Assembly (NCBI RefSeq): GCF_001424425.1 | Contig: NZ_LMPT01000001.1 | Span: 236,137 to 300,136, forward strand | Length of the DNA stretch: 64,000 bases | Origin: Acidovorax sp. Leaf191 | GTDB lineage: Bacteria; Pseudomonadota; Gammaproteobacteria; Burkholderiales; Burkholderiaceae_C | Direction of reading: 5' to 3' | Part shown: positions 39,975 through 56,365 of the stretch, one piece after another | How the letters are laid out: every line of letters starts with the position of its first letter | Numbering within the stretch: the first letter of the stretch is position 1 | Notes under the pieces: model-generated | What the model was told of the DNA's origin: nothing | Database searches by the model: none | What the model saw: only the letters and a program-made list of their open reading frames with translations | Position numbers and translations under genes: made by a program

Positions 39975-40443
39975 AGAATGGTTTCCCTCTTTGGATGAAT
40001 TTGCGATGGAGCAACGCGCCGCTCCGGCGGCGCAGGCGCAACGGCCTGGTGACGCATTTGCAACCGCTGCAGCGGCTTGTTTCAAATGGCGGGCGATTGT
40101 TTCATGCAGCTACCGGCCGCTTCTTGACAGGCTGCACTCGATTGCAACCGTTCGTATCGTCGAGAGCGGGCAGCGAGCATCGTGCTGGCGGCAGGCCAAC
40201 GCGCCAACGGCGTCACCGTGATCTGGTGCAAAGCGCTTCAAGTAGCGTATTGCTGCCGCCCTGGCGGCTCAGCGGCTGTGGCCTGAAGTTCAACTGCAAG
40301 GCCTCCCGCCAGTGGCGCACGGCTTACATGCACTCACAATTCCGAAGGCTGCCAGCAAGCCATTGCGAAGAGCAAATGCTGGCCTTCAGAGGGCGCGCAG
40401 GCTGCCATTTCATTTTTAGCACATGTGTGCTAAATTTCGATCC
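39975..40443. other. Intergenic region between divergent M48 and TetR genes
   Basis: About 470 bases with no ORF that I can support. Composition is less GC-rich than coding DNA. TTGACA occurs near 40125 without a fitting -10. The TetR operator (listed separately) is at the right end. The upstream region of the M48 gene is otherwise featureless to me. Confidence 0.5.
40415..40434. promoter_or_regulatory. Operator palindrome in front of the TetR gene
   Basis: TTTAGCACA and TGTGCTAAA form 9-bp perfect arms around a TG centre, ending 9 bases before the ATG at 40444. Binding there would block transcription or initiation of the regulator itself. Confidence 0.65.
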
Positions 40444-41055
40444 ATGGACGCCAAGACCCAAAAAGCAGAGCTCACCCGCGCCGCCATCGTCGGCGCCGCG
40501 CTGGACCTGGCTGCCGCCGAGGGGCTGGAGTCGATCACGCTGCAGGCCGTGGCCGACCGCGTGGGCTTGTCCAAGAGCGGCGTGTTCTCGCGCGCCGGCT
40601 CGCGCGAGGCCTTGCAGAAGGCGGTGATTGAAGAGTTCGGCCGCCGCTTTCTGGCCGACGTGTTCGTGCCGTCCATGCAGCACCCCAAGGGTCTGCCGCG
40701 CCTGAACGAGATCGTGCGCCGCTGGATCGCCCGCACACGCGATGTCGAAGCCTTCACCGGCTGCATCTACACCGCCGGCGCCTTCGAGCTGGACGACCGC
40801 GACGGCGAGCTGCGCGACCAGCTGCACGGCGAGATCACACGCTGGCGCGCCGCCCTGCGGCGCACGGTGCTGCAGTCCATCGAGGCCGGACACCTGCCGG
40901 CCGACACGCCCGCAGACCAGCTGGTGGGCGAGATCTACGCGATGATCATGGGCCTGTTGCACGATGTGCGCTTTCTGCGCGATCCGCAGGCCGTGCAACG
41001 GGTGGAGGCGTCGTGGGCGCGCCTCATCCAGAGTTACCAGCCGACGGCGGCCTGA
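40444..41055 (+). CDS. TetR-family transcriptional regulator
   Basis: The 203-residue product has the N-terminal helix-turn-helix (LTRAAIVGAALDLAAAEGLESITLQAVADRVGLSKSGVFSRAGSREAL in outline) and a C-terminal domain with FTGCIYTAGAFELDDRDGELRDQL. This group of TetR proteins, with F-S-R/H-F-G-S-K-E in place of Y-Y-H-F, often controls its own gene and a neighbouring alpha/beta hydrolase. Here a small ORF and a hydrolase follow on the same strand, and a strong palindrome sits at the start. Confidence 0.9.
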   Translation: MDAKTQKAELTRAAIVGAALDLAAAEGLESITLQAVADRVGLSKSGVFSRAGSREALQKAVIEEFGRRFLADVFVPSMQHPKGLPRLNEIVRRWIARTRDVEAFTGCIYTAGAFELDDRDGELRDQLHGEITRWRAALRRTVLQSIEAGHLPADTPADQLVGEIYAMIMGLLHDVRFLRDPQAVQRVEASWARLIQSYQPTAA

Positions 41056-41129
41056 AGACGGTGCGCCATGGAAATCTCTTGCTTTGTTTTGCCCCAATTT
41101 CGCACAACCGTGCGAAGAAAGGAGAAGCC

Positions 41130-41243
41130 ATGTTGATCTTGCTGATACTGGCAGCCGCCATCGCCGTTGCGCGCGCCGTGCAGGCACTGCGCGACACACT
41201 CGCCCAGCTGCCGCGCAGCAACCGCGACTGGATCTTCTACTGA
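41130..41243 (+). CDS. 37-residue small protein
   Basis: A tiny ORF with a near-ideal ribosome site (AAAGGAGA, 6 bases before the ATG). Product: a hydrophobic helix (MLILLILAAAIAVARAVQAL) followed by RDTLAQLPRSNRDWIFY. I recall similar short proteins next to such TetR/hydrolase pairs in Comamonadaceae. It may be a membrane-associated microprotein; function unknown. Confidence 0.65.
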   Translation: MLILLILAAAIAVARAVQALRDTLAQLPRSNRDWIFY

Positions 41244-41442
41244 GCGCGGCCCACACGAAGCTGCGGGCGCCGTGGCCGCGCGCGGGTTCGTACGACGACC
41301 CGCGCTGCCTGCAACGCAGCGCGTGGCCAGAGCAGCTTTGCCGCGTTGTGTGGCCCGCCCTCAACGCCCGCGCCCGGCCCCAGGCCGCGCTGCGCCAACC
41401 ACCCCACCCTCCCCTGTGTGTTTGACTTTCCGGAGCACCGCC

Positions 41443-42399
41443 ATGAGCCATTCCAACGCCCTGCAGGCCACCACCCACTTCTACGGCGGACATGCCGGCA
41501 TGCGGCTGCTGCGCACCGCCCTGGGCGCTGCCGAGCGCCTGTGGCCCGCCCTGGCCGTGCGCGCGGCCTACCGCCTGTTCGGCACGCCCTTGCCTTTGCG
41601 CAGACCCGGCGGCAACGCCCTGCCCGCCGGTGCGTGGCGCACCGAGCGCTGGCCGTTCGAAGACGCCGAGATCACGCTCTACACGCCCCAGGCGCAGCCC
41701 CATGGCCCCGCCGTGCTGTTGCTGCACGGATGGGGCGGCCACGCGCGCCAGATGCTGCCGCTGGCCGATGCCCTGGCCGCGCGGGGCCTGCGACCGGTGC
41801 TGGTGGACCTGCCCGCGCACGGCGGCAGCCGGGGCCGCGTGAGCAACCTGGCGCAGTTCGCCCGGGCCATCGAATACGCCACGGCCCGGCTGCACGCGCA
41901 GGACTCGGCGCCCACCGCGGTGGTGGCGCATTCGCTCGCGGCCAATGCGGCTGCGCATGCCGCCAGCCGCGGCCTGGCCACCGGGCGGCTGGTGCTGCTG
42001 GCGCCGCCCGCATCGCCGCACGAATACACGCGCCTGTTCGCGCAGGTGTTCGGCCTGTCGGAGCACACGCGCGCCGCCATGCAGCGGCGCATCGAGGCGC
42101 GCGAAGGCATTCTGATGCGCCAGTTCGAGCCGCCCGCCGTGGGCCCGCGCATCGCCCTGCCCACGCTGGTGGTGCACGACCGGGGCGACCGCATCAACCG
42201 CTTTGCCGACGGCGAGGCCTACCGCGACTGCATTGCGGGCGCCACGCTGATGCCCACCGAAGGGCTGGGGCACCGCAAGATCCTGCAGCACGCCGAGGTG
42301 CTGGCCGCCGTGGCGGATTTCGTGGCGCAGCCGGTGCCTGCGCAGCAGCCGGCAGGCACCGGGCCCGGCCGGCTGCTGGCCGACGGCTGCCCGAAGTGA
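41443..42399 (+). CDS. Alpha/beta hydrolase
   Basis: The 318-residue product has GPAVLLLHGWGGHARQMLPLADAL (oxyanion region), VLVDLPAHGGSRG, the nucleophile serine in VVAHSLAANAAA near residue 165, the acid in VVHDRGDRINRF and the histidine in EGLGHRKIL. The elbow reads A-H-S-L-A instead of G-x-S-x-G, a tolerated variation. It is the probable target of the TetR regulator upstream. ATG at 41443 follows CCGGAGCACCGCC. Substrate unknown; perhaps a medium-chain ester or acyl compound. Confidence 0.85.
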   Translation: MSHSNALQATTHFYGGHAGMRLLRTALGAAERLWPALAVRAAYRLFGTPLPLRRPGGNALPAGAWRTERWPFEDAEITLYTPQAQPHGPAVLLLHGWGGHARQMLPLADALAARGLRPVLVDLPAHGGSRGRVSNLAQFARAIEYATARLHAQDSAPTAVVAHSLAANAAAHAASRGLATGRLVLLAPPASPHEYTRLFAQVFGLSEHTRAAMQRRIEAREGILMRQFEPPAVGPRIALPTLVVHDRGDRINRFADGEAYRDCIAGATLMPTEGLGHRKILQHAEVLAAVADFVAQPVPAQQPAGTGPGRLLADGCPK

Positions 42400-42587
42400 T
42401 GGGCCGCGGCTTGAACCGTGGGGCGGCCTGTCGCCAACAGTTACAGCCGCCATGGCGACGCGGGCAGACAGCGCCTATCATCCGGGACGCCGCTGCGCCG
42501 CGAGAACCGTTCCTGCGGGCGCAGCGGCCGATGAATGGCCGGTGACCGCACCGGCCGCCCCACGCTGCTATCCGACTGGCGCCTGCA

Positions 42588-43019
42588 ATGCACCTTCTCA
42601 CGTCCGCCTGGCCTGCACTGGCCTACCTGCTGCCCGCGCTGGTGCTGGTGTCTGCGATCTACTTTCTGGCCAAGGGCGACCGGCGCGCGCTGGCGCACCT
42701 GATGGCGCTGCTGGCGTGCTTCCTGATCGGTGCGCTGCTGATGGAGTTCTTCATCTTCATGGCCGCGCGCATGGCCCGCTCGGGCAGCCGCGATGCCGTG
42801 CTGGGCATGGGCACCCGCCAGCTGCTGGAGACCATGGCCAACCCACGCTCCATCGCCGCGCAGCCCCTGACGCTGGCGGCCGTTTCCGCCTACAGCGTGC
42901 TGGCCGCGTACCTGTGGCTGCTGGTCACCTGGGTGCTGCACCTGCGCGGCAAGCCCGCGGGTGGCGCCCGCAAGAAGAAGCCCGCCAAGGCATCCGCCCG
43001 CAAGCCGGCGCGCGCCTGA
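42588..43019 (+). CDS. Membrane protein of unknown function
   Basis: A 143-residue inner-membrane protein with three predicted helices (LAYLLPALVLVSAIYFLA, LAHLMALLACFLIGALLMEFFIFMA, YSVLAAYLWLLVTWVLHL) and a Lys/Ala-rich cytoplasmic tail (RKKKPAKASARKPARA), which could bind nucleic acid or acidic lipids. Family not recognised. A T-run (GTTTTTTTT at 43027) follows the stop but without a clear stem. Confidence 0.7.
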   Translation: MHLLTSAWPALAYLLPALVLVSAIYFLAKGDRRALAHLMALLACFLIGALLMEFFIFMAARMARSGSRDAVLGMGTRQLLETMANPRSIAAQPLTLAAVSAYSVLAAYLWLLVTWVLHLRGKPAGGARKKKPAKASARKPARA

Positions 43020-43341
43020 GCCGCAGGTTTTTTTTATCACGCACCTTTTTTGAAGGTTTTTGATGGCCTACCGCTGGATGGACGGGCGCCAGAAGCTATT
43101 TATTGGATAGCAACTGCCTTGACGGGCCATCTGCGTGGCTTCGTCATGCGCCCACAGCCCGGTAGACCCCCATCGCCACCGCATGGCGCGTGCGTGGTTG
43201 ATGTGCGGCCAGCCGCCAGCACCTCCCAAGGCCAGGCTTGATGCAGGGCAAAGCCTGCCGCCCGGGGCGCATCCACAATGCAGGCCGTCGCCTCCGCTTG
43301 CAGGGGCGTGCGTACCGGGCGGGTCCACCCGCACCTCGGCG
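43020..43341. other. Intergenic region upstream of the ubiM-like gene
   Basis: 322 bases with no convincing gene. It holds a copy of the dispersed repeat (43056-43112) and then GC-rich sequence up to the ubiM-like start. Confidence 0.5.
43056..43112. repeat. Dispersed palindromic repeat, copy 7
   Basis: TTTTTGATGGCCTACCGCTGG, then GGGCGCCAGAAGCTATTTATTGGATAGCAACTG: the same order of elements as the other copies, with a degenerate stem. Confidence 0.65.
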
Positions 43342-44694
43342 ATGACATCCACCACCACCTCCCCATCTCACAGCGACGTCCTCATCGTCGGCGCGGGGCC
43401 TGCGGGCCTGTCGTTGGCCATCTCCCTCGCACAGGCCGGGTTCACTGCCACCGTGGTCGAGCAGCAGCCGCAAGCCGCGCTGGCCGACCCCGCGCCCGAC
43501 GGCCGCGAGATCGCCCTGACCCACCCCAGCCGCGCCACGCTGCAGCGGCTGGGCACCTGGACGCAGCTCGCGCCGCACGAGACCGGCGCCATCCACGCGG
43601 CGCAGGTGCACGACGGGCCGCTCGGCCAACACAGCGCGCTGCAGCTCGATGCCCGGCGCGCGGGCGCGGGCCATGAAGCGCTGGGCTTCATCGTCCCCAA
43701 CCACGCGCTGCGGCGCACCGCGTATGCCGTGGCGGCGCAGACGCCCGGGGTGCGCATCGTCACCGGCGCCCAGGTGACGCGCGTGGCGACCCTGGCCACG
43801 CATGCCGAGCTGGAGTACCGCCTGCCGTCCGATCCCGCGGCGCGCCCCGGCACCCACGGCGCGACACCGCCGACCGAGCGGCTGCAGGCACCGTTGCTGG
43901 TGGCGGCCGACAGCCGCTTGTCGGCCACGCGGCGGCAGCTGGGCATCGGCGCGCGCATGGCGGACTTCGGCCGCACCGTCATCGTCTGCCGCATGCGCCA
44001 TGCCCTCGCCCACGGCGGCGTGGCGCACGAGTGTTTTGGCTACGAGCGCACGCTGGCCATACTGCCTCTGCCGGATGCGATGGACACGGTGGGCGCGGCG
44101 GACGCGGCCGGCACCGCGCACCGGTGCTCGGTCGTCGTCACCGCAGGCGCTGCAGATGCAGCCGCTCTGATGGCGTTGCCGGCCGGCGCGTTTGCGGCCC
44201 AGGTACAGGCGCAGTTCCGTGGCCGCCTGGGCCCTATGCAGCTCGACGGCGAGCGCCATGCCTACCCGCTGGTGGCCGTGTATGCCGACCGCTTTGCCGC
44301 CCACCGCTGCGCCCTGCTGGGCGACGCCGCCGTGGGCATGCACCCGGTGACGGCGCACGGCTACAACCTGGGCCTGGCCGGTGTGGAGCGGCTGACCACC
44401 GCCCTGCAGACTGCGCGCCGCCAGGGCCGCGACATCGGCGACCACCGCGCACTGGCCGCCTACGCCCGCGCGCACCACCACCACGCCTGGCCGATCTACG
44501 AAGGCACCAACGCCATCGTGCGGCTGTACACCGACGCACGCCCCCTGCCCCGCCTGCTGCGCCAACTGGTGCTGCAAGGCGCGCGCCGCCTGCCGCCCCT
44601 GCAAGCCGCCATCGTGGGCCAGCTGACCGGCAAACCGCCTGGCTGGATGCAGGCGCTGGCGCCCGGCCGTCCCACAAATCTTCAAAAAACATAG
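43342..44694 (+). CDS. ubiM: FAD-dependent ubiquinone hydroxylase, UbiM-like
   Basis: The 450-residue product is a UbiH/VisC-type flavin monooxygenase: GXGXXG motif DVLIVGAGPAGLSLAISLAQAG at the N terminus, DG motif region ADSRLSATRRQLG, and GD motif CALLGDAAVGMHPVTAHGYNLGL. The H-P-V-T-A-H-G form is, from memory, typical of UbiM, which hydroxylates the quinone ring in ubiquinone synthesis in many betaproteobacteria. It would be a membrane-associated cytoplasmic enzyme. Its last residues (NLQKT) and TAG stop come from the dispersed repeat at 44681-44782. UbiH, UbiF or a related hydroxylase remain alternatives. Confidence 0.8.
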   Translation: MTSTTTSPSHSDVLIVGAGPAGLSLAISLAQAGFTATVVEQQPQAALADPAPDGREIALTHPSRATLQRLGTWTQLAPHETGAIHAAQVHDGPLGQHSALQLDARRAGAGHEALGFIVPNHALRRTAYAVAAQTPGVRIVTGAQVTRVATLATHAELEYRLPSDPAARPGTHGATPPTERLQAPLLVAADSRLSATRRQLGIGARMADFGRTVIVCRMRHALAHGGVAHECFGYERTLAILPLPDAMDTVGAADAAGTAHRCSVVVTAGAADAAALMALPAGAFAAQVQAQFRGRLGPMQLDGERHAYPLVAVYADRFAAHRCALLGDAAVGMHPVTAHGYNLGLAGVERLTTALQTARRQGRDIGDHRALAAYARAHHHHAWPIYEGTNAIVRLYTDARPLPRLLRQLVLQGARRLPPLQAAIVGQLTGKPPGWMQALAPGRPTNLQKT

Positions 44695-44782
44695 CTGCCA
44701 GCGCCCGCCTGGATTGGCGTGCAGCCGTACTTGTACCGCAACCCAACCCCAACAAGCGCCACCAGCTATATCTTCAATAGCA
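44681..44782. repeat. Dispersed palindromic repeat, copy 8 (long form, supplies ubiM-like stop codon)
   Basis: Two half elements: TTCAAAAAACATAGCTGCC at the left and AACAAGCGCCACCAGCTAT...TCAATAGCAAGC at the right, facing each other around a longer centre. The TAG of the left half is the stop codon of the upstream gene (44692-44694). Confidence 0.75.
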
Positions 44783-44838
44783 AGCTACCTCTGCAACTGG
44801 CGCGCCCCAAGGCCAGTGCCACCGTGGAACTGGCTCCG

Positions 44839-44966
44839 CCAGGCCACGGGTAGCGTCGCCCTGCGGGGGAAGGCGCCATAGGCGACTCAAGGGGGGCTTC
44901 CATGCTTCCAGGCCACGGGTGGCGTCCCCCTGCGGGAGAAGGCGCCGAAGGCGACTCAGGAGGAGT
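44839..44966. repeat. 59-bp direct repeat (two copies)
   Basis: 44839-44897 and 44908-44966 are nearly the same (CCAGGCCACGGGT-GCGTC, then GAAGGCGCC and GGCGACTCA), with a 10-base gap. The right copy covers the stop codon of the methyltransferase gene on the minus strand. Confidence 0.85.
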
Positions 44967-45924
44967 CGTGCACCCCCAGCGTCACCATGCCGTACAGCGG
45001 CGCGCCCAGCCAGGGCCACCACAGCGTCTCCAGCGCCAGGCCCGCCCAGCCATAGCATTCCGCCACGCTGTGCTCGTGCAGCAGCTCCAGGCGCGGGTGC
45101 ACGGCGGCCAGGTCGGACAGGCGCGCCACACCCCAGCGGAACTCGGCCCCGGTGGGCCCCACGCTCGCATGGCGGGCCGCCGTGCCCACAGCGCGGTGGG
45201 TCAGCACATCCAGCACCAGGCGCGAGCCCGCGGGCGCGCACTGCGCGAACTCGGTCAGCACGGCCTCGACCTGCGCGGGCTCCAGGTACATCAGCACGCC
45301 TTCGCACAGCACCAGCACGGGCTGCGGCGGCGGCGGCTCGCCGGCGGCGGCATCACGCGTCGGCAGGCCCAGGCGGCCCCACCAGCCGGGCTGGGTGATG
45401 TCCACCTCGGCCAGGCGGGCGCGCGGGCACTGCGCAGGCAGCAAGGGGCGGCGCAGCGCCATCACCTCGGGCAGGTCGGCGTCCAGCCAGTGGTTGGCAC
45501 CGGTGTCCAGCCACTGGAAATGGTGCGACAGGCCGCAGCCCAGGTTCACGCCCTGGGCCCCGGGGTGCATCAGGAAGAATCCCTGCGCCGTGTCGCGAAT
45601 GAACCGCGTGCGCCACAGCACGTTGAGCACCGTGGGCAGGTCGTTGAGGTAGGCCTCCACGTCGGCGCCCAGGCGCTCCAGCAGCTCGGCAGCCACCGCA
45701 TCGCCGCACGCCAGCCACGGAAAGTAATGGTCGCCCCGCGCCCGTGCGGCCAGGGGGATGAGCAGGGTGCTGGGTACGGGGGGCAAAGGCGCTTGCTGCA
45801 CCAGAAGCGGGCCTGGCGCGGCGGCGCGGCGGGGCGCGGCTTTGCGCGAAGCAGCGGCCGCAACGGCAGGCGCTGGCGTGCGGCCACGGTGTCGGCTTTG
45901 GGTCGTCGGCGGCTGCAGCGGCAA
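44956..45924 (-). CDS. LCM-type class I SAM-dependent methyltransferase
   Basis: The product resembles the leucine carboxyl methyltransferase (PPM1/TcmP) family: STLLIPLAARARGDHYFPWL, a SAM-binding GVNLGCGLSHHFQWLD, WLDADLPEVMALRR and VLVLCEGVLMYLEPAQVEAVLTEFA. Such enzymes methylate carboxyl or hydroxyl groups of small molecules, including polyketides. I chose the TTG at 45924, seven bases after GAGGAG, giving 322 residues with a variable Ala/Arg-rich first 50; the frame stays open to 46191 with a less protein-like sequence. The last codons overlap the 59-bp repeat. Confidence 0.75.
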   Translation of the reverse strand: MPLQPPTTQSRHRGRTPAPAVAAAASRKAAPRRAAAPGPLLVQQAPLPPVPSTLLIPLAARARGDHYFPWLACGDAVAAELLERLGADVEAYLNDLPTVLNVLWRTRFIRDTAQGFFLMHPGAQGVNLGCGLSHHFQWLDTGANHWLDADLPEVMALRRPLLPAQCPRARLAEVDITQPGWWGRLGLPTRDAAAGEPPPPQPVLVLCEGVLMYLEPAQVEAVLTEFAQCAPAGSRLVLDVLTHRAVGTAARHASVGPTGAEFRWGVARLSDLAAVHPRLELLHEHSVAECYGWAGLALETLWWPWLGAPLYGMVTLGVHDSS

Positions 45925-46221
45925 GATCGTCTCCTCGTGTGGCCGGCAGGCGCCACGATGGGTTGTCACACGGACGAGGTAGGGAGGGCCCGCAAGGACA
46001 AGGCCGTCCCCATTGTGAACGGGTTGTGGTGACACGCGGTAAAAGCTCTGCGTGGAGCAGGGAATCAAACAGCCTGCCTGCGCCACAGCCTCAGCGCCCC
46101 GGAAAACAGAAAAGGCCCGGCAGAAGCAGGCCCTCCGCCCTTGCCGCACACAAAAGGCGCGCGGATCAGCGCCGCGTTGAAGAAGAATCACTGCCCCACG
46201 GGATACGCCGACCGGGGCAAT

Positions 46222-46401
46222 TCAAAGTGAGGTGGCGCCGCTGGCGACAAAGACGCGCTGCTCTTGCAGGGTGCGTTTGCCGTCCACGACGGCAAAGTCG
46301 ATGGGCGTGATGTCAATGGCTCTTTGGACCACGGCAACGAGGTCCGCATGAACGCCGTCGAGTTCGGCCACAGACTTGGCTCCCAGGTGGTAGGCAGGCA
46401 T
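46222..46401 (-). pseudogene. Truncated phage-type M15 endolysin (N-terminal fragment)
   Basis: The 59-residue ORF reads MPAYHLGAKSVAELDGVHAD, then LVAVVQRAIDITPIDFAVVDGKRTLQEQRVFVASGATSL. This matches the start of phage L-alanyl-D-glutamate peptidases of the M15/VanY type, which carry a K/R-S-L-x-x-L-x-G-V-H-P-x-L start and a R-T-x-x-x-Q segment. The catalytic S-R-H-x-x-G-x-A-x-D part, which should follow the last residues, is missing, replaced by a TGA and unrelated sequence. A good ribosome site (AAGGAG) is kept. It is probably a decayed prophage remnant; use as a short regulatory or inhibitory peptide is possible but unsupported. Confidence 0.65.
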
Positions 46402-46429
46402 CGGGGTTCTCCTTTCCCATCGATCGAAC

Positions 46430-47971
46430 TCAGGGGCAGCCGGTGCCTGCACCGGGCACAAACGGTGCCTTGACAGCGCTTGTCAGGTCATCGCCCTTGG
46501 CGATCTTGAGCCCGCCATCCTGCGCAGCCTTTTGCTTGAGCAGGCCCAGCAACACCGCGGTACGAGAATCGACCTCGGCATTGGCTGCGTACGCCACGCG
46601 GTCCACGCGGTCTGCAGCGGCCACGGCATTGGCTTGCGCCTGAGCCAGAACCAGCTGTGCGTTGACGCGTTTGGCAGGGTCCGACTGCACAAGCTGCCAG
46701 TGGGTTTGTGCATTGACGAGTGCCTCGGTGACCGCGGCCAGCGCCGAAACACACTGCGTCAGTACGCCCGGGGGCTGGCTCTGGATCAGCGGCTTCAGCA
46801 CGGCCTCGGACAACGACTGGGCCACCGCGCTCCTCAATGCACCAGGGTCCATGGCCGCCGGTGCCGGCTTGGAGTCCTTCTCCTTCTCCTTTGTCTTTTG
46901 CTCTTCCTTTTCCTTGAACTCGCTGTAGGTACGGGCTGTCAGCTGGGCCGCGCTATCGATGTGCAGGGCGATGCGCGCCTGCGCACTGCGGGCGACCATG
47001 ACGCGCGAATCCGGCGTCGGCTGCTCGACCGGTTTTGTCGAAGACACCAGCATGGAGGGCACGTCAGCCCCGGCTATCGCCACCAGCTTTTCCAACTGGC
47101 CGTTGTCCAGCAGGTCGGCCGACGAAGCCTGGCTCAGCGCTCTCAAGGCGGCGTTGCCGGCAATGACGCGCGCTGCGGTTTTGAGACCGGGGCTTTCCAC
47201 TTCGCGGATCGCTTCCTGAGCTTCGATCAATCCCGAAACGGTGGAGCAAGTGCCATCAATGACGATGGCATCGTTGATGGCCGCCTCCATGGAATAGTCC
47301 TCCACGGACTTGCCCTGGCGGGCCTCGACCAGTTCTTTTCTCAGGCGGTTCTGGCGCAGCTCAATGCCCTGCACGATGACGTGGGCCGCCAGATTGCTGT
47401 AGTAGCTTTGGTTGTACTCGCTGCGCAGGCCGCTGAACAGGCCCGCGGCCCCGGCCAGGTTGCGCGAAGCATTCACGCCGGGCAGCACGGCGCCCAACAC
47501 CCCTGACGCGGTCGTCAGCGCGCCCAGCGTGAAGTTCACGTCCACCTGCTGGCGGCGCAGATAGGTTTTGAAGACATTGCAGCGGGACGTCGAAACCGCC
47601 AGGATCTTGTCTTGCACGCTGTTGCGTCGCTGGCGCTTCCAGTCACCCACATCAGGTTGCCGGCCAAACCAGGACAGCACCTGGTCGTACTGCCGGCCGT
47701 GGCTCGATCCGGAGGGCGGGTGGCTCCAGACATGGCTGTATTTTTCGAACTGGGACTCGCCCTTGGGATCGATCAGCTCAAGCAGGTTCACCTGTTCAAA
47801 GGTGCCGCGCCGCATGGCGGGGTAGCTGCTGTGCTGGTCCACCCGACTGAACTGCTCCGAAGTTTCCTTGATGTGTCCTTCGTCGGTGACCGCATGCAAC
47901 TGTGCGCAGCCGGAGACCACGGCAGCGCATGCAACGACAAGCACGGCTTTGATGCCAATACGACAGCGCAT
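46430..47971 (-). CDS. Lipoprotein of unknown function
   Basis: A 513-residue protein with a lipoprotein signal peptide (IGIKAVLVVACAAVVSGC, lipobox VSGC). The middle (NFTLGALTTASGVLGAVLPG, YNQSYYSNLAAHVIVQGIELRQNRLRKEL) is predicted helical with a small hydrophobic hairpin, and a Lys/Glu-rich coiled segment (FKEKEEQKTKEKEKDSK) lies near residue 370. Cysteines are few (CNVF, CSTV, CVSA). I do not recognise a named family, though the Y-Y/F-x-N-L...G-I-E/D-x-R pattern recalls unnamed proteins in other proteobacteria. Composition is less GC-rich than the neighbours. It lies beside a phage endolysin fragment and a MITE, which suggests acquisition by transfer. Confidence 0.75.
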   Translation of the reverse strand: MRCRIGIKAVLVVACAAVVSGCAQLHAVTDEGHIKETSEQFSRVDQHSSYPAMRRGTFEQVNLLELIDPKGESQFEKYSHVWSHPPSGSSHGRQYDQVLSWFGRQPDVGDWKRQRRNSVQDKILAVSTSRCNVFKTYLRRQQVDVNFTLGALTTASGVLGAVLPGVNASRNLAGAAGLFSGLRSEYNQSYYSNLAAHVIVQGIELRQNRLRKELVEARQGKSVEDYSMEAAINDAIVIDGTCSTVSGLIEAQEAIREVESPGLKTAARVIAGNAALRALSQASSADLLDNGQLEKLVAIAGADVPSMLVSSTKPVEQPTPDSRVMVARSAQARIALHIDSAAQLTARTYSEFKEKEEQKTKEKEKDSKPAPAAMDPGALRSAVAQSLSEAVLKPLIQSQPPGVLTQCVSALAAVTEALVNAQTHWQLVQSDPAKRVNAQLVLAQAQANAVAAADRVDRVAYAANAEVDSRTAVLLGLLKQKAAQDGGLKIAKGDDLTSAVKAPFVPGAGTGCP

Positions 47972-48288
47972 AGACCCATCCCTCTCTCTGTTTTTGCTTC
48001 TGGGGCGCGCAAATTTTCCAGCGAGGGTGCACGGCTGCGCTATCCCATAAATGGGGGTATCTTTTACGCGCGGTTGGGGGTAAGCCGATCGGCGTCTGGC
48101 CTGCCAAGGATCGGCAAGGCGCCTAGGGACCCTCTGCAAGAATCATCGCGCCGTGTGCATCTGCGGTCTCGGGCCGCCTGCGGCGTTGCAAATACTCGCG
48201 ATAGCTACGGCTATTGCCGCGTTTTGCGCCTTGCACTCCATCCCGATCCGCAGCGCACACTTGGCAGCTCGATTCGTGCAGAGGATCC
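47972..48288. other. Intergenic region carrying a MITE
   Basis: 317 bases: about 150 AT-mixed bases that must hold the promoter of the lipoprotein gene (AGAGAGGGATGGG lies just before its ATG), then the 170-bp MITE. No other gene seen. Confidence 0.6.
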
Positions 48289-48292
48289 CTAG
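48123..48292. mobile_element. 170-bp MITE with inverted ends and CTAG duplication
   Basis: The ends GGACCCTCTGCAAGAATC (48127-48144) and the complement of GATTCGTGCAGAGGATCC (48271-48288) match at 16 of 18 positions. Both are flanked by CTAG (48123-48126, 48289-48292). There is no ORF inside; the middle holds a GCAAATACTCGCGATAGCTACGGC-type near-palindrome. A 4-bp duplication of this kind is typical of IS5-group elements, so a helper transposase elsewhere is likely. Confidence 0.75.
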
Positions 48293-49047
48293 TGGGCCAC
48301 CAATGCCCATACCAGGGCCACGCCCGCGGCCAGCAGGTCTCCGGTGAAGGCGCCCTCATCGCGGTCCCGCGTGCCGCTGAACGCGCTCTTTTGCCGCTCC
48401 CGCTCGGCCCGGCTGCGGTCGCGCTCCAGCGCCACCAGTGCGTCGCCGATGTCCACCGTCGCGGCCGGCGTGCCGGGTGCGGCGTGGGCGGGGCGGGCGC
48501 TGGCCCGGGCGTAGCCTTCCATCGCACGCACCACGGCATCGGGGTCGATGAGCGAGAACGCAGCGCGGCAGTACGGACACGCGTGGTCCTTGCGGATGTC
48601 CACCGGCGCGCCGCAGCTGGTGCAGTAGATCGCGCCCACGCGCTTGGCGAGGTCGTCGATCTCGGGGCGCGTCATGTGGCGCACGAAACCTTTCTCGACC
48701 ATGAAGGAAGAGAAGGTGCTGAAGCGCCCGTGCTGGCGCGCGCAGCGGTAGGTCATGTACCGGCCGCTGCGCACCACGTCGAAGCCCTTGTCCAGCGAAG
48801 AGCGGCAGCGCGGGCAGTCCATGCGCGACTCCAGCGGGCGGTGTTCATCGGTGCGGTGCTCGTGCAGCAGCCGGAACAGGTCCACCACGGCCTGGGGCGA
48901 GAGCTTGAGGTTTTCGTACCGGTCGAGCCAGATGCCCTGGCAGGCATAGCAGATGTCCAGCTCCAGCGCGTGCCCGGTGTTGCTGGTGAAGGGGTAGGCC
49001 TGCATGGGCTGGCGGCACGACGGGCAGGACGGTGCGAAAGGCTGCAT
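48289..49047 (-). CDS. Zinc-ribbon (zf-TFIIB type) protein
   Basis: The 252-residue product has several C-x2-C pairs that should bind zinc: CPSCRQPMQAY and CYACQGIWLDRYE (a zf-TFIIB unit), CPRCRSSLDKGF, then CTSCGAPVDIRKDHACPYCRAAF. A C-terminal hydrophobic helix (GDLLAAGVALVWALVAH) could anchor it to the membrane. Function unknown. The TAG stop codon (48289-48291) lies in the CTAG that borders the MITE, so insertion left the gene just complete or reset its end. ATG at 49047 chosen where the first ribbon begins. Confidence 0.82.
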   Translation of the reverse strand: MQPFAPSCPSCRQPMQAYPFTSNTGHALELDICYACQGIWLDRYENLKLSPQAVVDLFRLLHEHRTDEHRPLESRMDCPRCRSSLDKGFDVVRSGRYMTYRCARQHGRFSTFSSFMVEKGFVRHMTRPEIDDLAKRVGAIYCTSCGAPVDIRKDHACPYCRAAFSLIDPDAVVRAMEGYARASARPAHAAPGTPAATVDIGDALVALERDRSRAERERQKSAFSGTRDRDEGAFTGDLLAAGVALVWALVAH

Positions 49048-49216
49048 GGTTTCGTTGCAAGGGTGAAGGCGGGCCCTTCGCGCCCGCCGGTGGCCGCATC
49101 CTAACGCCGGGGCGCCGCACGCTCCCCGGCCCCGGGTCTTCCCGGACGTTCGTGGAGCGCGGGCGGATTCATCCACTAGCATTCGCGCCTCGAACTACAA
49201 AGTACAAGGAACATCC

Positions 49217-50503
49217 ATGGGATTCATGAACTGGCAAGAAAAAAGCGCTGCCGTGCTGCAGCAAGGCGGGGTGATAGCGCCCGACGAGCGGCTGCCCTGG
49301 CCCCAGACCGCCGCCATGGGCGTGCAGCACGTGATCGCCATGTTCGGCGCGACGGTGCTGGCGCCCATCCTCATGGGGTTTGACCCCAACGTGGCCATCC
49401 TGATGAGCGGTGTGGGCACGCTGATCTTCTTTCTGGTGACGGGCGGGCGGGTGCCCAGCTACTTGGGCTCGAGCTTTGCGTTCATCGGCGTGGTGATCGC
49501 GGCCACGGGCTACGCGGGCAAAGGCCCCAACGCCAACATCGCCGTGGCGCTGGGCGGCATCATCGCGTGTGGTCTGCTCTACACGCTGATCGGCGCGCTG
49601 GTGCAGGCCATCGGCACGCGCTGGATCGAGCGCTTCATGCCGCCCGTGGTCACGGGCTCGGTGGTGGCGGTGATCGGGTTGAACCTGGCGAGCATCCCGA
49701 TCAAGAACATGGCGGCCAGCAACTTCGACAGCTGGATGCAGGTAGTGACCTTCGTGAGCGTGGGCCTGGTGGCCGTGCTCACGCGGGGCATGGTGCAGCG
49801 CCTGCTGATCCTGGTGGGGCTGATCGTGGCGAGCATCATCTACGCGGTGCTGACCAACGGCCTGGGCCTGGGCAAGCCCATCGACCTGTCCATCCTGGCG
49901 AACGCCGCGTGGGTGGGCATGCCCAACTTCGCCGCGCCGGTGTTCGACGGCAATGCGATGCTTCTGATCGCCCCGGTGGCCATCATCCTCGTGGCCGAGA
50001 ACCTGGGCCACATCAAGGCCGTCACGGCGATGACCGGGCGCGACCTGGACCGCTACATGGGCCGCGCGTTCATCGGCGACGGCGTGGCCACCATGGTCAG
50101 CGGCGGCGTGGGCGGCACGGGCGTGACGACCTATGCCGAGAACATCGGCGTGATGGCCGCGACCAAGATCTACTCGACCGCCGTGTTTTTGCTGGCGGGC
50201 GTGTTCGCGCTGGTGCTGGGTTTTTCTCCCAAGTTCGGCGCGCTGATCCAGACCATTCCGCTGCCGGTGATGGGCGGTGTCTCCATCGTGGTGTTCGGAC
50301 TGATCGCAGTGGCGGGCGCCAAGATCTGGGTGGACAACAAGGTGGACTTTTCGCAGAACAAGAACCTGATCGTGGCGGCCATCACGCTCATCCTGGGCAC
50401 GGGCGACTTCACGCTCAAGTTCGGCCAGTTCGCGCTGGGCGGCATCGGTACCGCCACGTTCGGCGCCATCCTGCTATACGCGCTGCTCAACCGCAAGGGC
50501 TGA
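49217..50503 (+). CDS. Uracil/xanthine-type permease (NCS2, RutG/UraA-like)
   Basis: The 428-residue protein has 12-14 predicted helices and NCS2 motifs: [30 protein letters not shown], the SSFAFIG segment, [16 protein letters not shown] with the conserved Glu, and [24 protein letters not shown]. This pattern is nearest to UraA/RutG pyrimidine carriers, which take up uracil or thymine with protons. It stands alone, with no pyr or rut genes near. An intrinsic terminator follows. The ATG at 49217 follows AAGGAACATCC. Confidence 0.9.
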
Positions 50504-50567
50504 GCGGCTCGGCCAGGGCGGGCGGCCCTTCCATCCAACGCAACTGCCCGCAGGGCGGTGCGGTCCC

Positions 50568-50600
50568 AGGCCTCCCGCCCCGTGGCGGGGGGCCTTTTTT
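50568..50600 (+). terminator. Intrinsic terminator of the permease gene
   Basis: Long GC stem (AGGCC-TCCCGCC / GGCGGGG-GGCCT) followed by six T residues. Confidence 0.85.
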
Positions 50601-50715
50601 ATCGGCCGGGCGCCACGCTGCCCGGCATCGCGCTGCACGGTGTTCATGGCGGGCCGTGCGGCAGCGAATCCCCGGCCGGGACAAGGCCAAACACGGGGCT
50701 GTCACACACCCCTGG

Positions 50716-50735
50716 TTACAATCAGGGTTAACCCT
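50716..50735. promoter_or_regulatory. Possible -10 box and AGGGTTAACCCT operator before the LivJ-type gene
   Basis: TTACAAT at 50716-50722 is followed directly by the perfect 12-bp palindrome at 50724-50735, so a bound repressor would cover the transcription start. Confidence 0.45.
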
Positions 50736-50823
50736 AGGTCTTTCGACCACCCCCACCCCTGTGTTCCCTGCTACATCCAGCCCCGCCGGGGCTGGATGTT
50801 TTTTGCCCGTGAGTTTTCATTCC

Positions 50824-51975
50824 ATGCAACGTCGCCAGTTCACCCAGTCCCTCGTCGCCGCCAGCACCGGCCTGCTGTTTGCCAACCCCTCGCGCGCCGT
50901 GGGCGTGCAGGACCCGATGGACGCCAAGAGCGTGGCCATCGGCTGCTCCATCGGCCTCACCGGCCCGCTGGCCAGCCTGGGCAAGGAGCTCAAGCAGGGC
51001 CTGGACGCAGGCATCGCCCAGGCGAACGCCCGCGGCATCCATGGCCGCGAGTTGAAGCTGGTGGTGCTGGACGACGGCTATGACGCAGCGCGCTCCGAAG
51101 CCAATGCGCGCAAGCTGATCGCCGACGGCGGCGTGGTGGCGCTGCTGTCGTGCATGGGCACGGCCAACAACCAGCGCATCCTGCCGCTGGTGGACGAAGC
51201 GCAGATCCCCTACGTGGCCCCGCAAAGCGGCGCGACGTCGCTGCGCAAGGCGGACTACCGCTCGGTGTTCCACGTGCGTGCCAGCTACTCCGACGAAGCC
51301 CAGCGCCTGACGCAAAAGCTGGTGGCCATGGGCATCACCGACCTGGCCATCGTCTACCAGGACACGGCCTTCGGCCGCGAATTCCTGGCCGATGTGAACA
51401 ACGCCATGAAGGCCGCCAAGCAGCCCGCACCCAAGGCCTTCAAGCTCGACGCACAGGGTGCGCAGGTGGCCGACGTGGTCAAGCAGGCCGTGGCGGCCAA
51501 GCCCACCACGGTGCTGCTGGGCACCGCGGGCGATGTGTCGGCCTCGCTGATCAGCGAGTTCAAGAAAGTGTCGCCCAGCACCCCGCTGGCCGCAACCAGC
51601 GTGGCCCTGTCCGGCGACAACCTGCGCGAGCTGGGCGGCAAGGCCTCCGGCCTGGCCCTGTCGATGGTGCTGCCCGACGCGAGCCGCACCAGCGTCGCCT
51701 TGGTGCGCGACTACCAGCGCGCCATGAAGGCCGCGGGCTTCCAGGACTTCTCGGCCCGCAGCTTCGAAGGCTATGTGAACGCCCGCGTGCTGACCGAAGG
51801 CCTGGAGCGCACCGGCCGTGAGCTGACCCGCGGCAAGCTGCGCAACGCCCTGGCGGGCATCCGCAGCAACGACATGGGCGGCCTGATGATCGACTACGCG
51901 GGCAGCGCCCCGTATGTGGGATCGCGCTTCCTCGAGCTGGGCGTGATGGGGTCCAACGGCAAGTTCGTGGGGTAA
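50824..51975 (+). CDS. Branched-chain amino acid-type ABC substrate-binding protein
   Basis: The 383-residue product has a signal peptide (MQRRQFTQSLVAASTGLLFANPSRA; the R-R-Q-F is twin-arginine-like) and a type I periplasmic binding fold: VAIGCSIGLTGPLASLGKELKQG, LVVLDDGYDAARSEANARKLI, and YVAPQSGATSLRKADYRSVF. The LivJ family binds amino acids, amides or aromatic acids. No Liv permease or ATPase genes are near, so this is an orphan receptor, common in this bacterial group. Confidence 0.9.
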   Translation: MQRRQFTQSLVAASTGLLFANPSRAVGVQDPMDAKSVAIGCSIGLTGPLASLGKELKQGLDAGIAQANARGIHGRELKLVVLDDGYDAARSEANARKLIADGGVVALLSCMGTANNQRILPLVDEAQIPYVAPQSGATSLRKADYRSVFHVRASYSDEAQRLTQKLVAMGITDLAIVYQDTAFGREFLADVNNAMKAAKQPAPKAFKLDAQGAQVADVVKQAVAAKPTTVLLGTAGDVSASLISEFKKVSPSTPLAATSVALSGDNLRELGGKASGLALSMVLPDASRTSVALVRDYQRAMKAAGFQDFSARSFEGYVNARVLTEGLERTGRELTRGKLRNALAGIRSNDMGGLMIDYAGSAPYVGSRFLELGVMGSNGKFVG

Positions 51976-52074
51976 GCAGCAGGTCCGCACGCCGCCCCGG
52001 GCGGCGAGATGGGCACAATGGCCGGTCCGAACAGATTCACACCCTCCGCACCTCCCTGCCCGACCGAAGCCACC

Positions 52075-52497
52075 ATGCCCATCTGGAAAAAGCCTGTCGA
52101 CCTGGCTCGACTCAACGCCGACCACCACAACACCGCTGCCTCGCACCTGGGCATCGAGATCATCGAACTGGGTGACGACTTCCTGCGCGGCCGCGTGCCC
52201 GTGGACCAGCGCACCAAGCAGCCGTTTGGACTGCTGCATGGCGGCGTGAGCGTGGTACTGGCCGAATCGCTGGGATCGGTGGGTGCCTACTACGCCAGCC
52301 CCGAAGGCCACAACGCCGTGGGCCTGGACATCAACGCCAACCACCTGCGCTCTGCGACCAGCGGCTGGGTGACGGCCACCGCGCGGCCCATCCACATCGG
52401 GCGCACCACGCAGGTGTGGCACATCGACATGGTCAACGACGCGGGCGAGCTGACCTGCGTGTCGCGGCTGACGATGGCGATCCTGGCTCCGAGGTAG
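52075..52497 (+). CDS. Hotdog-fold thioesterase (YdiI/MenI-like)
   Basis: The 140-residue product has the PaaI/YdiI hotdog signature: RVPVDQRTKQPFGLLHGGVSVVLAESLGSVGAYY (conserved H-G-G and the catalytic Glu in L-A-E-S), then GLDINANHLRSATSGWVTATA. It hydrolyses acyl- or aroyl-CoA; YdiI acts on 1,4-dihydroxy-2-naphthoyl-CoA and benzoyl-CoA in E. coli. Betaproteobacteria rely on ubiquinone, so a housekeeping role on aromatic or acyl-CoAs is more likely. Confidence 0.88.
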   Translation: MPIWKKPVDLARLNADHHNTAASHLGIEIIELGDDFLRGRVPVDQRTKQPFGLLHGGVSVVLAESLGSVGAYYASPEGHNAVGLDINANHLRSATSGWVTATARPIHIGRTTQVWHIDMVNDAGELTCVSRLTMAILAPR

Positions 52498-52561
52498 AGA
52501 CCAATCCCCTGAGCCGCTTTGCGCCTCGGTGCTGGTCGCCAGAGGCGACAGCTCTTCGGGC

Positions 52562-52600
52562 CGTCCAAGCCTGCGCAAGCGGGCTCGGAGCCGCGGCCCT
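52562..52600. repeat. GC-rich dispersed repeat, copy B
   Basis: Shares CGGAGCCGCGG and GTCCA-GCCTG with 11715-11753. Next to it an arm pair CGAATCG/CGATTCG (52613-52632) forms a small hairpin. Confidence 0.6.
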
Positions 52601-52721
52601 CAGCCCCTTCTCTCGAATCGCTACGCGATTCGGGAAGGGGGACGATGCCCTCGCTGCGGGGCGGCCCTTGCTAGGCATCCCTGGTATTGGGGCGTGCCAG
52701 TTTCAGAAGTCGCGGAATTGA

Positions 52722-52781
52722 TGGAGAATCGGCCGCCAGCGCTTGGTGAACAAGCGCAAGCAGCTATCTATTCAGTAGCAT
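52722..52781. repeat. Dispersed palindromic repeat, copy 9 (supplies adenosyltransferase stop codon)
   Basis: GGCCGCCAGCGCTTG and CAAGCGCAAGCAGCTATC form the stem, followed by TATTCAGTAGCATTC. The last residues (NATE) and TAG stop (52768-52770) of the minus-strand gene lie inside. Confidence 0.85.
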
Positions 52782-53337
52782 TCTGCGCCGCAAGACGCTC
52801 GCTTTTCCAGTACACGTCGTCGCCGCCGTCCATGCGGTTGAGCACGCGGGCCAGGACGAACAGCAGGTCCGACAGGCGGTTCAGGTACTGGCGCGGGGCG
52901 TCGTTCAGCTGTTCGGCGCTCCCCAGCGCCACCACCACTCTTTCGGCCCGGCGCGCCACGGTGCGGCACACGTGGGCCTGCGCGGCGGCGCGGGTGCCGG
53001 CGGGCAGGATGAATTCCTGCAGGCGCGGCAGCGTGGCGTTGTGGTGCGCCAGGGCCTCGTCGAGGTCCAGTACGGCCTGGGGCTTGAGCAGCTCAAAGCC
53101 GGGGATCGACAGCTCACCGCCCAGGTTGAACAGCTGGTGCTGCACTTCCACCAGCAGGTCGCGCACGTCGCCCGGCAGTGGCTCGCACAGCAGCAGGCCA
53201 ATGTGGGAGTTGAGTTCGTCCACATCGCCGAGCGCATGGATGCGCAGGCTGTCTTTGGAGACGCGTTCGTTGTTGCCCAGGCCTGTGGTGCCGGCGTCGC
53301 CGGTGCGCGTGGCGATTTGTGTGAGTCGGTTGCCCAT
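52768..53337 (-). CDS. Cobalamin adenosyltransferase (PduO-type ATR)
   Basis: Transfers the adenosyl group of ATP to cob(I)alamin, making coenzyme B12. The 189-residue product has the ATR marks TRTGDAGTTGLGNNERVSKD near the N terminus, DVDELNSHIGLLL, and the C-terminal helix with CRTVARRAERVVVAL and YLNRLSDLLFVLARVLN. The partner MetH-type B12 user is the split metH gene, far away at 2.7-3.7 kb. Start at ATG 53337 where homology begins. The last four residues come from the dispersed repeat. Confidence 0.92.
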   Translation of the reverse strand: MGNRLTQIATRTGDAGTTGLGNNERVSKDSLRIHALGDVDELNSHIGLLLCEPLPGDVRDLLVEVQHQLFNLGGELSIPGFELLKPQAVLDLDEALAHHNATLPRLQEFILPAGTRAAAQAHVCRTVARRAERVVVALGSAEQLNDAPRQYLNRLSDLLFVLARVLNRMDGGDDVYWKSERLAAQNATE

Positions 53338-53470
53338 GGGTGCCTTGAGAGAAAGGGTCGTGTCCGCGCGCCTGCCTGATCGCAAGCGGCCGGCCTGAAA
53401 GTCTGCAGACCGGATTTTGCGCCACATGCTGCCTCACACACCTGCATCAGCGCTTGAACATCCACAGCAA

Positions 53471-53522
53471 AAAGCCCGCACCCACTGATTCACCGCGAGG
53501 TGAATCAGTGGGTGCGGGCTTT
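53471..53522. terminator. Long perfect hairpin, bidirectional terminator
   Basis: A perfect 24-bp stem (AAAGCCCGCACCCACTGATT, then CACC, and its complement) with a GCGA loop. It lies between the adenosyltransferase gene start and the EF-hand gene end on the minus strand, and should stop the EF-hand transcript. Confidence 0.8.
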
Positions 53523-53571
53523 GCGCAGGGGGAGCTGGCCAGCGCCCCCCGCAGGCAGCCATCCACAAACC

Positions 53572-54009
53572 TTAGTGGGTCGTGGTGGGCATGCGGTTCA
53601 TGCGGTCGATATCGGCGGTGGACACGCCCGAGCCTGTGGGCTTCATGTTGTTCCAGGACGTGGTGTGGTACGCATCCCATTCCGCGCGGGACACCATGCC
53701 GTCCCCGTTGGTATCCATCAGGCGTGCGTTCACGCGGGCGTCGGCCTTGGCAGCGGCCTTGCCGCCGGAGGCGCTGGGGTTGATCTCGGCCACAGGGGCG
53801 CCGCGGCCGTCACCGGCAGCGGGGTTGGCGGGCATGGCGGTGCTGCGGGCAGCACGGTCATCGGCCTTGTTCTGTGCATTGGCAGCGGCAGGGCCGCCCG
53901 ATGCTGCGGGGTTCACTTCCGACGGAGGACGGGGTGCGTTCGGTGCCTGGGCCAGAGCGGCAGTGCAAGCGAGGGTTGCGAGGGCGGCGATGACGGTGTG
54001 CTTTTGCAT
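53572..54009 (-). CDS. Secreted EF-hand protein
   Basis: A 145-residue protein with a signal peptide (MQKHTVIAALATLACTAALA) and one clear calcium-binding loop (DTNGDGMVSRAEW near residue 99). Before it is a duplicated Ala/Pro-rich segment (VNPAASGGPAAANAQ and INPSASGGKAAAKAD). It would bind calcium in the periplasm or outside the cell. The start has a good ribosome site (AAGGAG). Divergent from a second EF-hand gene. Confidence 0.85.
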   Translation of the reverse strand: MQKHTVIAALATLACTAALAQAPNAPRPPSEVNPAASGGPAAANAQNKADDRAARSTAMPANPAAGDGRGAPVAEINPSASGGKAAAKADARVNARLMDTNGDGMVSRAEWDAYHTTSWNNMKPTGSGVSTADIDRMNRMPTTTH

Positions 54010-54343
54010 GAAGAGCTCCTTGATGAGTGAATACAACAGAGGGTTGAATAAAGCACCGCACTGTTGCGGGCTTGGAGTCATTGTTGGAAGCGATGCGCGA
54101 ACGCCATGTAGGACTTGCGCGGGCACAGCGGTCAGCCTGCAGGGCGGCTCGATACCGGCGCACGCCGCACCGGCGCGCAGTACGTTTGGGTACATGGCTG
54201 CCGCATTCGGACATAAACCACGCCCTGGCCGTTACACCGCGCTGGCAAATGTTGGGCAAGGCAACAGCAGGCAAGAGTGCTGGTGTTGGCGCCCATGCTG
54301 CGGTGCAATGGAGTCCTGTTCAACTTCGAAGGAATCCACTTCC
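54010..54343. other. Intergenic region between two divergent EF-hand genes
   Basis: 334 bases without a gene. It must hold both promoters. I see AT-richer sequence (AATACAACAGAGGGTTGAATAAAG, about 54031-54054) near the left gene and a GC-rich middle with GGCGCACGCCGCACCGGCGCG, but no strong matches to consensus boxes. Confidence 0.5.
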
Positions 54344-54709
54344 ATGAAGGCACTGCAACGACGCAACTACTCGTTCGACACGCGCAGCGTGATGCTTTTC
54401 GCGGCCCTCTCCCTGGGCGGCGTGGGCGCATTGCAAGCACAGACGACTTCCTCGCCCCAGTTCGGCCCCAGTGACAAGACTGCGCCCCACGCTGGCTCCA
54501 AAAATTCCACAGGCCCCGCCGTGATAGCGGCGCCTCAAGCCACCGCGGCCTCTGCCGCATTCGACCGCGCCGATGCCAACAAGGACGGCCAGCTCAGCGC
54601 GCAGGAAGCCGCCAAGCTGCCCGCCATCGGCCAACGTTTCAAGGAGCTGGATGCCGACAAGAACGGCACCCTTTCCCGCTCTGAATTCGAGAAAGGCGCC
54701 AGTTCCTGA
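54344..54709 (+). CDS. EF-hand calcium-binding protein with signal peptide
   Basis: The 121-residue product has an N-terminal export segment (FDTRSVMLFAALSLGGVGALQAQ) and two EF-hand loops: DANKDGQLSAQE near residue 78 and DADKNGTLSRSE near residue 103, close together as in paired EF-hands. It is likely a periplasmic calcium sensor or buffer, perhaps paired in function with the divergent EF-hand gene at 53572. The ATG at 54344 follows GAAGGAATCC. Confidence 0.85.
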   Translation: MKALQRRNYSFDTRSVMLFAALSLGGVGALQAQTTSSPQFGPSDKTAPHAGSKNSTGPAVIAAPQATAASAAFDRADANKDGQLSAQEAAKLPAIGQRFKELDADKNGTLSRSEFEKGASS

Positions 54710-54930
54710 TGCCCCTGCACTGACGCTGCCGCACAGGGCCGCCATGCCCTGGGCCACGGTGTCCCCACGCCATGTGCGGGCCCTGCGGTGACGCAAGGGC
54801 TCGTGAGCCTGCCCGCGCTGGAACTCCAGGGCGTGGGCAGGCTCTTGTGCGTGCAGAAAAAAAGCGTGGGTTAGGCCTGCGGCACCGATGCGCTGCAACG
54901 CGGTCGCCGGCCGGTAGATCGGTAGGCCGG

Positions 54931-55711
<781 letters not shown>

Positions 55712-55728
<17 letters not shown>

Positions 55729-56365
55729 GGAGTTTCCTTTCGAGGGACTGTGCGACCAGGCTCACCGGGAAGCACAACACAAAGTACAGCAGGGCCACGC
55801 AGGCGTAGACCAGGAAGGGCTGGTAGGTGGCGTTGGAGATCATGCTGCCCGCCTTCGTCAACTCGACGAAGCCGATCACCGACGCCAGCGCCGTGCCCTT
55901 GATCACCTGCACCAGAAAACCCACCGTGGGCGGCACCGCAATGCGCAGCGCCTGGGGCAGCACCACGTGGCGCAGCTGCTCGCCGAAGTTGAGCGCCAGG
56001 CTCTGCGCGGCCTCCCACTGGCCCTTGGGGATGGACGCCACGCAGCCGCGCCAGATCTCGGTGAGGTAGGCGCTGGTATAGAGCGTGAGCGCAAACGCGG
56101 CGGCCGTCCACGGCGATGTCTTGATGCCAAAGAGCGCGATGCCGAAGTACGCGAGGAACAGCTGCATGAGCAGCGGCGTGCCCTGGAACACCTGCACGTA
56201 GGCACCGATGAGCCGCTCGGTGCCGCGCACCTTGGACAGGCGCAGCACCAGCAGCAACAGGCCCACCAGCCCGCCGCCGATGAAGGCAATCAGCGAGAGC
56301 GTGACCGTCCAGCGCGCGGCCATCAGCAGATTGCGCAGGATGTCCCACAGAGAAAAATCAACCAT
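55712..56365 (-). CDS. Polar amino acid ABC transporter permease 2
   Basis: A 217-residue HisM/GlnP-type permease with about five helices and the ATPase-contact motif ALYTSAYLTEIWRGCVASIPKGQWEAAQSLALNF near residue 90. It lies 6 bases after the other permease and overlaps the ATPase gene. Confidence 0.94.

Follow-up and report, generated by a model that had tools for sequence, protein, structure and literature searches.

The window, as we call the whole 64,000-nucleotide stretch of DNA analyzed here (G000:C1:236137-300136 in the source genome), contains a small islet between a gene for an LCM-type methyltransferase (44956..45956, minus strand, start approximate) and a gene for a zinc-ribbon protein (48289..49182, minus strand). 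An earlier note on this DNA had placed an endolysin remnant, a lipoprotein gene, and a MITE between these two flanks, and all of these parts were confirmed. The lipoprotein gene (46430..47971, minus strand) encodes 513 amino acids with a lipobox cysteine at position 22, alanine at +2, and a predicted all-helical structure. After a gap of 28 bp read from the sequence (46402..46429, minus strand), its stop codon is followed on the same strand by the 59-residue N-terminal stump of an M15-type endolysin (46222..46401). A terminator-like hairpin with a T-run lies 3' of the stump (46110..46136, minus strand; consensus scan only), and such scanning gave 9 terminator-like sites in the region scanned versus 2.4 in shuffles. 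The third part is a MITE-like palindromic repeat with CTAG ends (48122..48292).

The whole islet spans 46023..48297 and has no counterpart in congeners; its left edge is uncertain and is set by one 13-bp match that genome G025 shares with the window up to about position 46022. This match suggests that native DNA extends to about 46022 on the left, so that the foreign part may start left of 46222, where the earlier note had put it. The lower GC content claimed for the lipoprotein gene was borne out (63.4% versus 68.2% for the window), and its third-position GC is 0.78, compared with 0.87 to 0.93 in four nearby genes. No Rfam match at gathering score was found within 45800-48500, no tRNA gene within 40000-56000, and no other phage-like gene was recognized by eye in the reading frames of the islet. 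Positions 44839-44963 of the window contain two copies of a 56-bp direct repeat (88% identical, 69 bp from start to start).

The stump matches the phage profile phrog_465, "endolysin" (E = 2.7e-16), at profile positions 41 to 97 of 292, in agreement with its earlier description as the remnant of a phage M15 endolysin; the missing remainder of the profile presumably includes the catalytic part. Matches were found in 293 phage records, all below 60% identity (52 to 56% among those listed), and the stump, which matched no Pfam model, is the only phrog_465 match in its own genome. It has its own Shine-Dalgarno sequence, AAAGGAG at 46409-46415, 7 nt before the ATG.

The repeat, described earlier as a MITE of about 170 bp and measured here at 171 bp, has the features of such an element: it is short, present in many copies, bounded by inverted ends, and devoid of genes. 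It recurs at 14 further places in its own genome (16 further match rows) and is widespread across the genus. The genome contains 23 terminal-repeat sites, including the two of the window, versus 0 for a reversed control pattern, and as single-stranded DNA the repeat forms one long hairpin (z = -6.1). No pair of the same ends about 1 kb apart was found in the genome at up to 3 mismatches, and a search of one open-access literature library, which is weak evidence of absence, returned nothing on the repeat. The zinc-ribbon gene takes its stop codon (48289-48291) from the right end of the repeat, and the repeat is probably incidental to the islet.

The same site in congeners

The earlier note had proposed a comparison of related genomes for presence or absence between the flanks. 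A homologue of the lipoprotein was found in none of 46 congeners at an E value of 0.001, and at least 24 congeners have both flanks on one contig. In 19 of the 24 listed, the aligned parts of the flanks lie 145 to 673 bp apart, and in the nearest four congeners (G008, G016, G045, and G001) the distance is 226 to 245 bp, versus about 2.34 kb in the window (45963-48305). The islet is accessory. The remaining distances are 1094 bp in G013 and 3.7, 8.3, 10.6, and 16.3 kb in G020, G038, G014, and G010, respectively.

Rhs genes fill the spot in four of these congeners (loci L140 to L143, in G010, G014, G038, and G020). Motif searches counted 6, 3, 2, and 1 Rhs cores at the four loci, three of which are therefore arrays, and displaced tips were found in three of the four. 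Matches to solved Rhs proteins, e.g., Tse15, Tse5, and Tre23, came from one protein each of G014 (L141) and G010 (L140). Two other congeners, G034 and G025, carry other small genes at the spot, membrane proteins by eye. With such differing contents the spot is a variable site, and in the four congeners with Rhs genes it carries conflict genes. The lipoprotein family had no match in loci L140 to L147, and an Rhs remnant in the window was rejected after tblastn with one G014 Rhs protein gave no match.

The lipoprotein and its family

The lipobox of the window protein reads VVSG-C22, and Cys22 is invariant in all 13 aligned members of the family. Lipoproteins are sorted by the +2 rule, under which we take the alanine at +2 to mark this one as an outer-membrane type. 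The 13-member alignment has 29 invariant columns, including Cys22, Cys131, and Cys242 of the window protein, which retains 29 of 29 columns invariant in its 12 homologues. In a leave-one-out comparison it scored 101/109, and its six closest relatives scored 0.918 to 0.99. With all 29 columns kept and a score like that of its relatives, the protein therefore shows no decay; in line with the earlier suggestion, which drew on the lipobox and the full reading frame, the alignment indicates that it is probably under selection. A glycine-rich hydrophobic stretch spans residues 145 to 163; in 11 of the 13 members, no other 19-residue segment past residue 40 is as hydrophobic as this stretch.

Searches of Pfam, NCBIfam, PADLOC, and PDB sequences gave no convincing match (best PDB E value, 0.1), consistent with the earlier remark that the lipoprotein belongs to no named family, and nothing on the family was found in the one open-access literature library searched, again weak evidence of absence. 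The structure prediction suggested earlier yielded an all-helical model, predicted at low confidence (full length, pLDDT 66.7 and pTM 0.38; core, pLDDT 66 and pTM 0.59), and fold searches gave no significant match. The best Foldseek match had an E value of 0.66, with probabilities of 0.1 or less, and the best match in a viral structure library had an E value of 0.68. Among the 50 Foldseek matches listed (of 90; many chains, few entries), 30 were ClyA-, Ahl-, Smh-, or Yax-type pore formers, which we take to be one kind, the alpha pore formers. A second look with VIA-align gave a best Z score of 6.8, with alpha pore formers at most 4.8, in the range about which the tool warns for helical bundles.

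Profile searches at an E value of 0.001 found relatives in 12 of 398 other genomes of the order sample and in 24 of 397 of the phylum sample, the latter including many weak matches from one genus. At 1e-5, relatives were found in 2 of 368 other genomes of the class sample and in 12 of 348 of the own-family sample. A scan of named genomes gave 12 loci, including those of Pseudorhodoferax sp. Leaf265, Pelomonas sp. KK5, Piscinibacter sakaiensis, and Pseudoalteromonas peptidolytica. Judged from these samples, the distribution of the family is patchy. An origin of the lipoprotein in phages was rejected, carriage by phages or prophages not having been found: none of 50,697 phage records contained a homologue at an E value of 0.01, and two peptide-pattern scans of viral contigs confirmed none. 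A plasmid origin was likewise rejected, with no nucleotide match to 46023-48121 in 72,556 plasmid records and a single protein match, from Pseudoalteromonas sp. NC201, that covered 30% of the query. In this homologue (L011, 14600-14740 and 14689-15996), the lipobox start lies in a different frame, by frameshift or sequencing error.

Neighboring genes and injection machines

At 34 loci of relatives, a script fixed a near set of 126 genes lying within two genes of the lipoprotein gene; Pfam was run on 27 of them, chosen by eye and most before the set was fixed. L052 (the same locus as L109), L011 (close to L110), one of two paralogues of L064, and 6 of the 7 loci of one genus, which has further matches outside the sample, were left out of the count. 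As a lower bound, 12 near genes at 11 of the 34 loci encode a wall or lipid hydrolase, a cysteine peptidase, or a wall-binding domain, and all 12 are on the strand of the lipoprotein gene. The domains are Amidase_3 (L012), Tle1 (L111), PG_binding_1 (L113), Peptidase_C1 and VanY (L061, VanY just under its cutoff), CHAP (L060), C92 (L054), GH46 (L063), patatin (L064 and L056), PG_binding with SLT (L059), and M15_4 (L104). A weak GDSL match at L109 was left out, a zinc phospholipase at L057 lies beyond the near set, and homologues of the L061 VanY and L111 Tle1 proteins occur further along at L056. No such neighbor was established at the other 23 loci, 17 of which had no near gene in the Pfam scan, and by eye no enzyme was seen beside the lipoprotein at many loci. 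Among 20 randomly drawn, more distant genes, none had such domains, a difference that is not significant (12/126 versus 0/20; P = 0.16). Homologous neighbor pairs numbered 6 among the 126 near genes versus 12 among 184 far genes, i.e., there was no near excess.

Fourteen other genomes matched in the class and own-family samples and gave nine new loci; four matches were the known loci L103, L104, L106, and L107, and one at a contig end was left aside. Such neighbors were found at 4 of the 9 later loci, from three genera: an alpha/beta hydrolase (DUF900) at L132 and L139, a GH19 protein below the Pfam cutoff at L137, and at L136 a 91% identical homologue of the latter, itself without a Pfam match. 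The wall-cutting partners of L012, L059, L060, L061, L063, L104, and L137 have top N-terminal 12-residue hydrophobicities of -0.1 to 1.5, compared with 2.0 to 2.4 for the lipase lipoproteins of L104 and L132, so that by this score all seven appear to begin without a signal-like segment. Three of the partners, the lipases of L104 and L132 and the patatin of L056, look as though they are lipoproteins or membrane proteins in their own right. No holin or spanin partner was recognized at these loci beyond weak, sub-cutoff matches at L108 and L065. An unnamed protein of about 97 residues adjoins the lipoprotein in L060 to L063, L136, and L137. In two species of one genus, L060 and L063 are cassettes near an nrdB gene (86% identical) whose lipoproteins are only 31% identical and whose enzymes differ (CHAP versus GH46), a pattern that looks like the exchange of whole cassettes.

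At L012 (G090:C60:1-20000), the lipoprotein gene is flanked by a tail-tube gene and by an amidase gene, the latter of which it overlaps, inside a contractile injection cluster. This cluster comprises two sheath and two tube genes, a papain-like peptidase, the family lipoprotein, the amidase, and a CIS_tube gene. The genome of the window itself has one type VI sheath gene. Within its own family, type VI sheath genes were found in 9 of 12 hosts of the lipoprotein versus 2 of 12 non-hosts (one-sided P = 0.006), the non-host controls having been hand-picked, not randomly drawn, from genomes listed without a match. The counts were 5 of 12 versus 4 of 12 at the order level (P = 0.5), and a single host among the 10 from outside the order had such a gene.

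Possible roles of the lipoprotein

The explanation that we consider best, with a likelihood a little short of even, is that the islet is a worn cassette of the toxin-immunity type, in which the wall-cutting partner became truncated and the immunity-type lipoprotein stayed behind. After export, the lipoprotein would carry its lipid on Cys22 and sit in the outer membrane on the periplasmic side, where it would shield the cell from envelope-cutting enzymes delivered by rivals or by its own secretion machines. Its partner would have been an M15 enzyme that cuts the wall and has no signal peptide; truncation would have removed the catalytic part of this enzyme, and the protective gene would then have been retained as an orphan. 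We infer the export and placement, the neutralizing or blocking of enzymes, the identity of the stump as the partner, and the selection for protection. The gene pairing of an effector-immunity pair was found, in the window at a distance of 28 bp on one strand and, as a lower bound, at 11 of the 34 relatives' loci, always on the same strand, as well as at 4 of the 9 later loci. The seven partners that appear to lack a signal-like N terminus, the Rhs genes at the same spot in four congeners, the member inside the contractile injection cluster, and the type VI association in the own family all point the same way, and the many loci without a visible enzyme are as expected for orphan immunity genes. 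On the other hand, no hydrolase neighbor was established at 23 of the 34 loci, the near-far contrast is not significant, homologous neighbors are no commoner near than far, the type VI link fails at the order level and outside the order, and some partners look like lipoproteins or membrane proteins. BLAST, moreover, showed no similarity of the stump to either the M15 partner of L104 or the wall-binding partner of L113. A specific inhibitor would not usually come from a single lipoprotein family found beside so many unrelated enzymes; the pattern may point to an immunity fold that is versatile, or to a partner in the membrane that helps the enzymes act or escape. A broader and rather doubtful proposal is that an undescribed superfamily of helical outer-membrane lipoproteins shields cells in general from signal-less envelope hydrolases of many unrelated kinds (M15, amidase, CHAP, GH46, SLT, Tle1, and others), or serves these enzymes as a membrane partner, with members used in one contractile injection cluster, in stand-alone cassettes, and on their own as orphans.

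Several of the same observations could be read otherwise. The nonsignificant difference in the small far control (P = 0.16), the lack of excess of recurrent neighbors, and the loci without an established hydrolase would suit an ordinary accessory lipoprotein serving envelope stability, adhesion, or nutrient binding, with the hydrolase neighbors a coincidence of genomic islands; we regard this as unlikely, given hydrolase-type neighbors at 11 of 34 and 4 of 9 loci and the Rhs genes at the same spot. It is also conceivable, though unlikely, that the protein is a lysis or release factor whose glycine-rich hydrophobic hairpin breaches the outer membrane while the partner cuts the wall, e.g., releasing injection particles or cell contents. 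The endolysin-like partners, the gene overlapping that of the amidase in the injection cluster, the hydrophobic stretch shared by 11 of 13 members, and the pore formers among the listed Foldseek matches are in its favor, whereas the structural resemblance is nonsignificant, with Z scores within the range of the helical-bundle warning and a core model of low confidence, and no holin or spanin partner accompanies the family beyond the two weak matches. An o-spanin, a small outer-membrane lipoprotein paired with an inner-membrane i-spanin gene, was ruled out by the size of 513 residues, and no i-spanin-like gene was recognized by eye in the islet. The earlier note had offered a phage-exclusion factor as an example of function, and a superinfection-exclusion lipoprotein beside an endolysin scrap of a decayed prophage would account for the likeness of the stump to phage M15 endolysins. 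That origin is very improbable, since the phage records contain no homologue of the lipoprotein and the viral-contig scans confirmed none, no further phage-like gene was recognized by eye in the islet, and the protein is far larger than known exclusion lipoproteins. The position of the stump, 28 bp 3' of the lipoprotein gene on the same strand and with its own Shine-Dalgarno sequence, together with hydrolases beside part of the relatives, is better explained by a conflict or lysis cassette than by a chance piece of phage DNA.

The islet is real and accessory and its lipoprotein is conserved; we infer the function. If the immunity reading is right, a single lipoprotein family guards against, or cooperates with, a variety of weapons that cut walls and lipids. 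Such breadth would break the usual picture of one toxin and one inhibitor, would explain why the libraries searched leave the family unlabeled, and would make the lipoprotein a marker for hidden envelope-attack cassettes. Were it only an ordinary accessory lipoprotein, the case would still document a spot that holds Rhs toxin genes in four congeners.

Among known systems, phage M15 endolysins (phrog_465) resemble the stump in their N-terminal part, whereas the remainder of the profile is missing from it. In four congeners the intergenic spot of the islet is taken up by Rhs polymorphic toxin loci, with displaced tips in three; a search of the window with one of these Rhs proteins gave no match, and nothing in L140 to L147 matches the lipoprotein family. 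Tli3 is described as an immunity protein, a lipoprotein of the outer membrane that protects against Tle3, a type VI phospholipase; it has beta structures, and one of its loops reaches into a crevice of the enzyme (PMC9860674). What the window family would share with Tli3 is the pairing of an immunity lipoprotein with an enzyme acting on the envelope from the periplasmic side, a function that is putative here; the window family differs in its all-helical prediction (at low confidence), in having no convincing PDB sequence match, and in the several enzyme classes nearby. In a survey of type VI effectors from Acinetobacter, 7 of the 9 immunity groups that belong to wall-cutting effectors had predicted signal peptides (PMC6833914). 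Both orphan immunity genes and acquired clusters for interbacterial defense are known, according to a review (PMC8632748). In the window the match to a toxin would follow only from the stump and the relatives' neighbors, which differs from those cases, and the likeness lies in an immunity-type gene without its toxin, patchily distributed and situated at a variable site.
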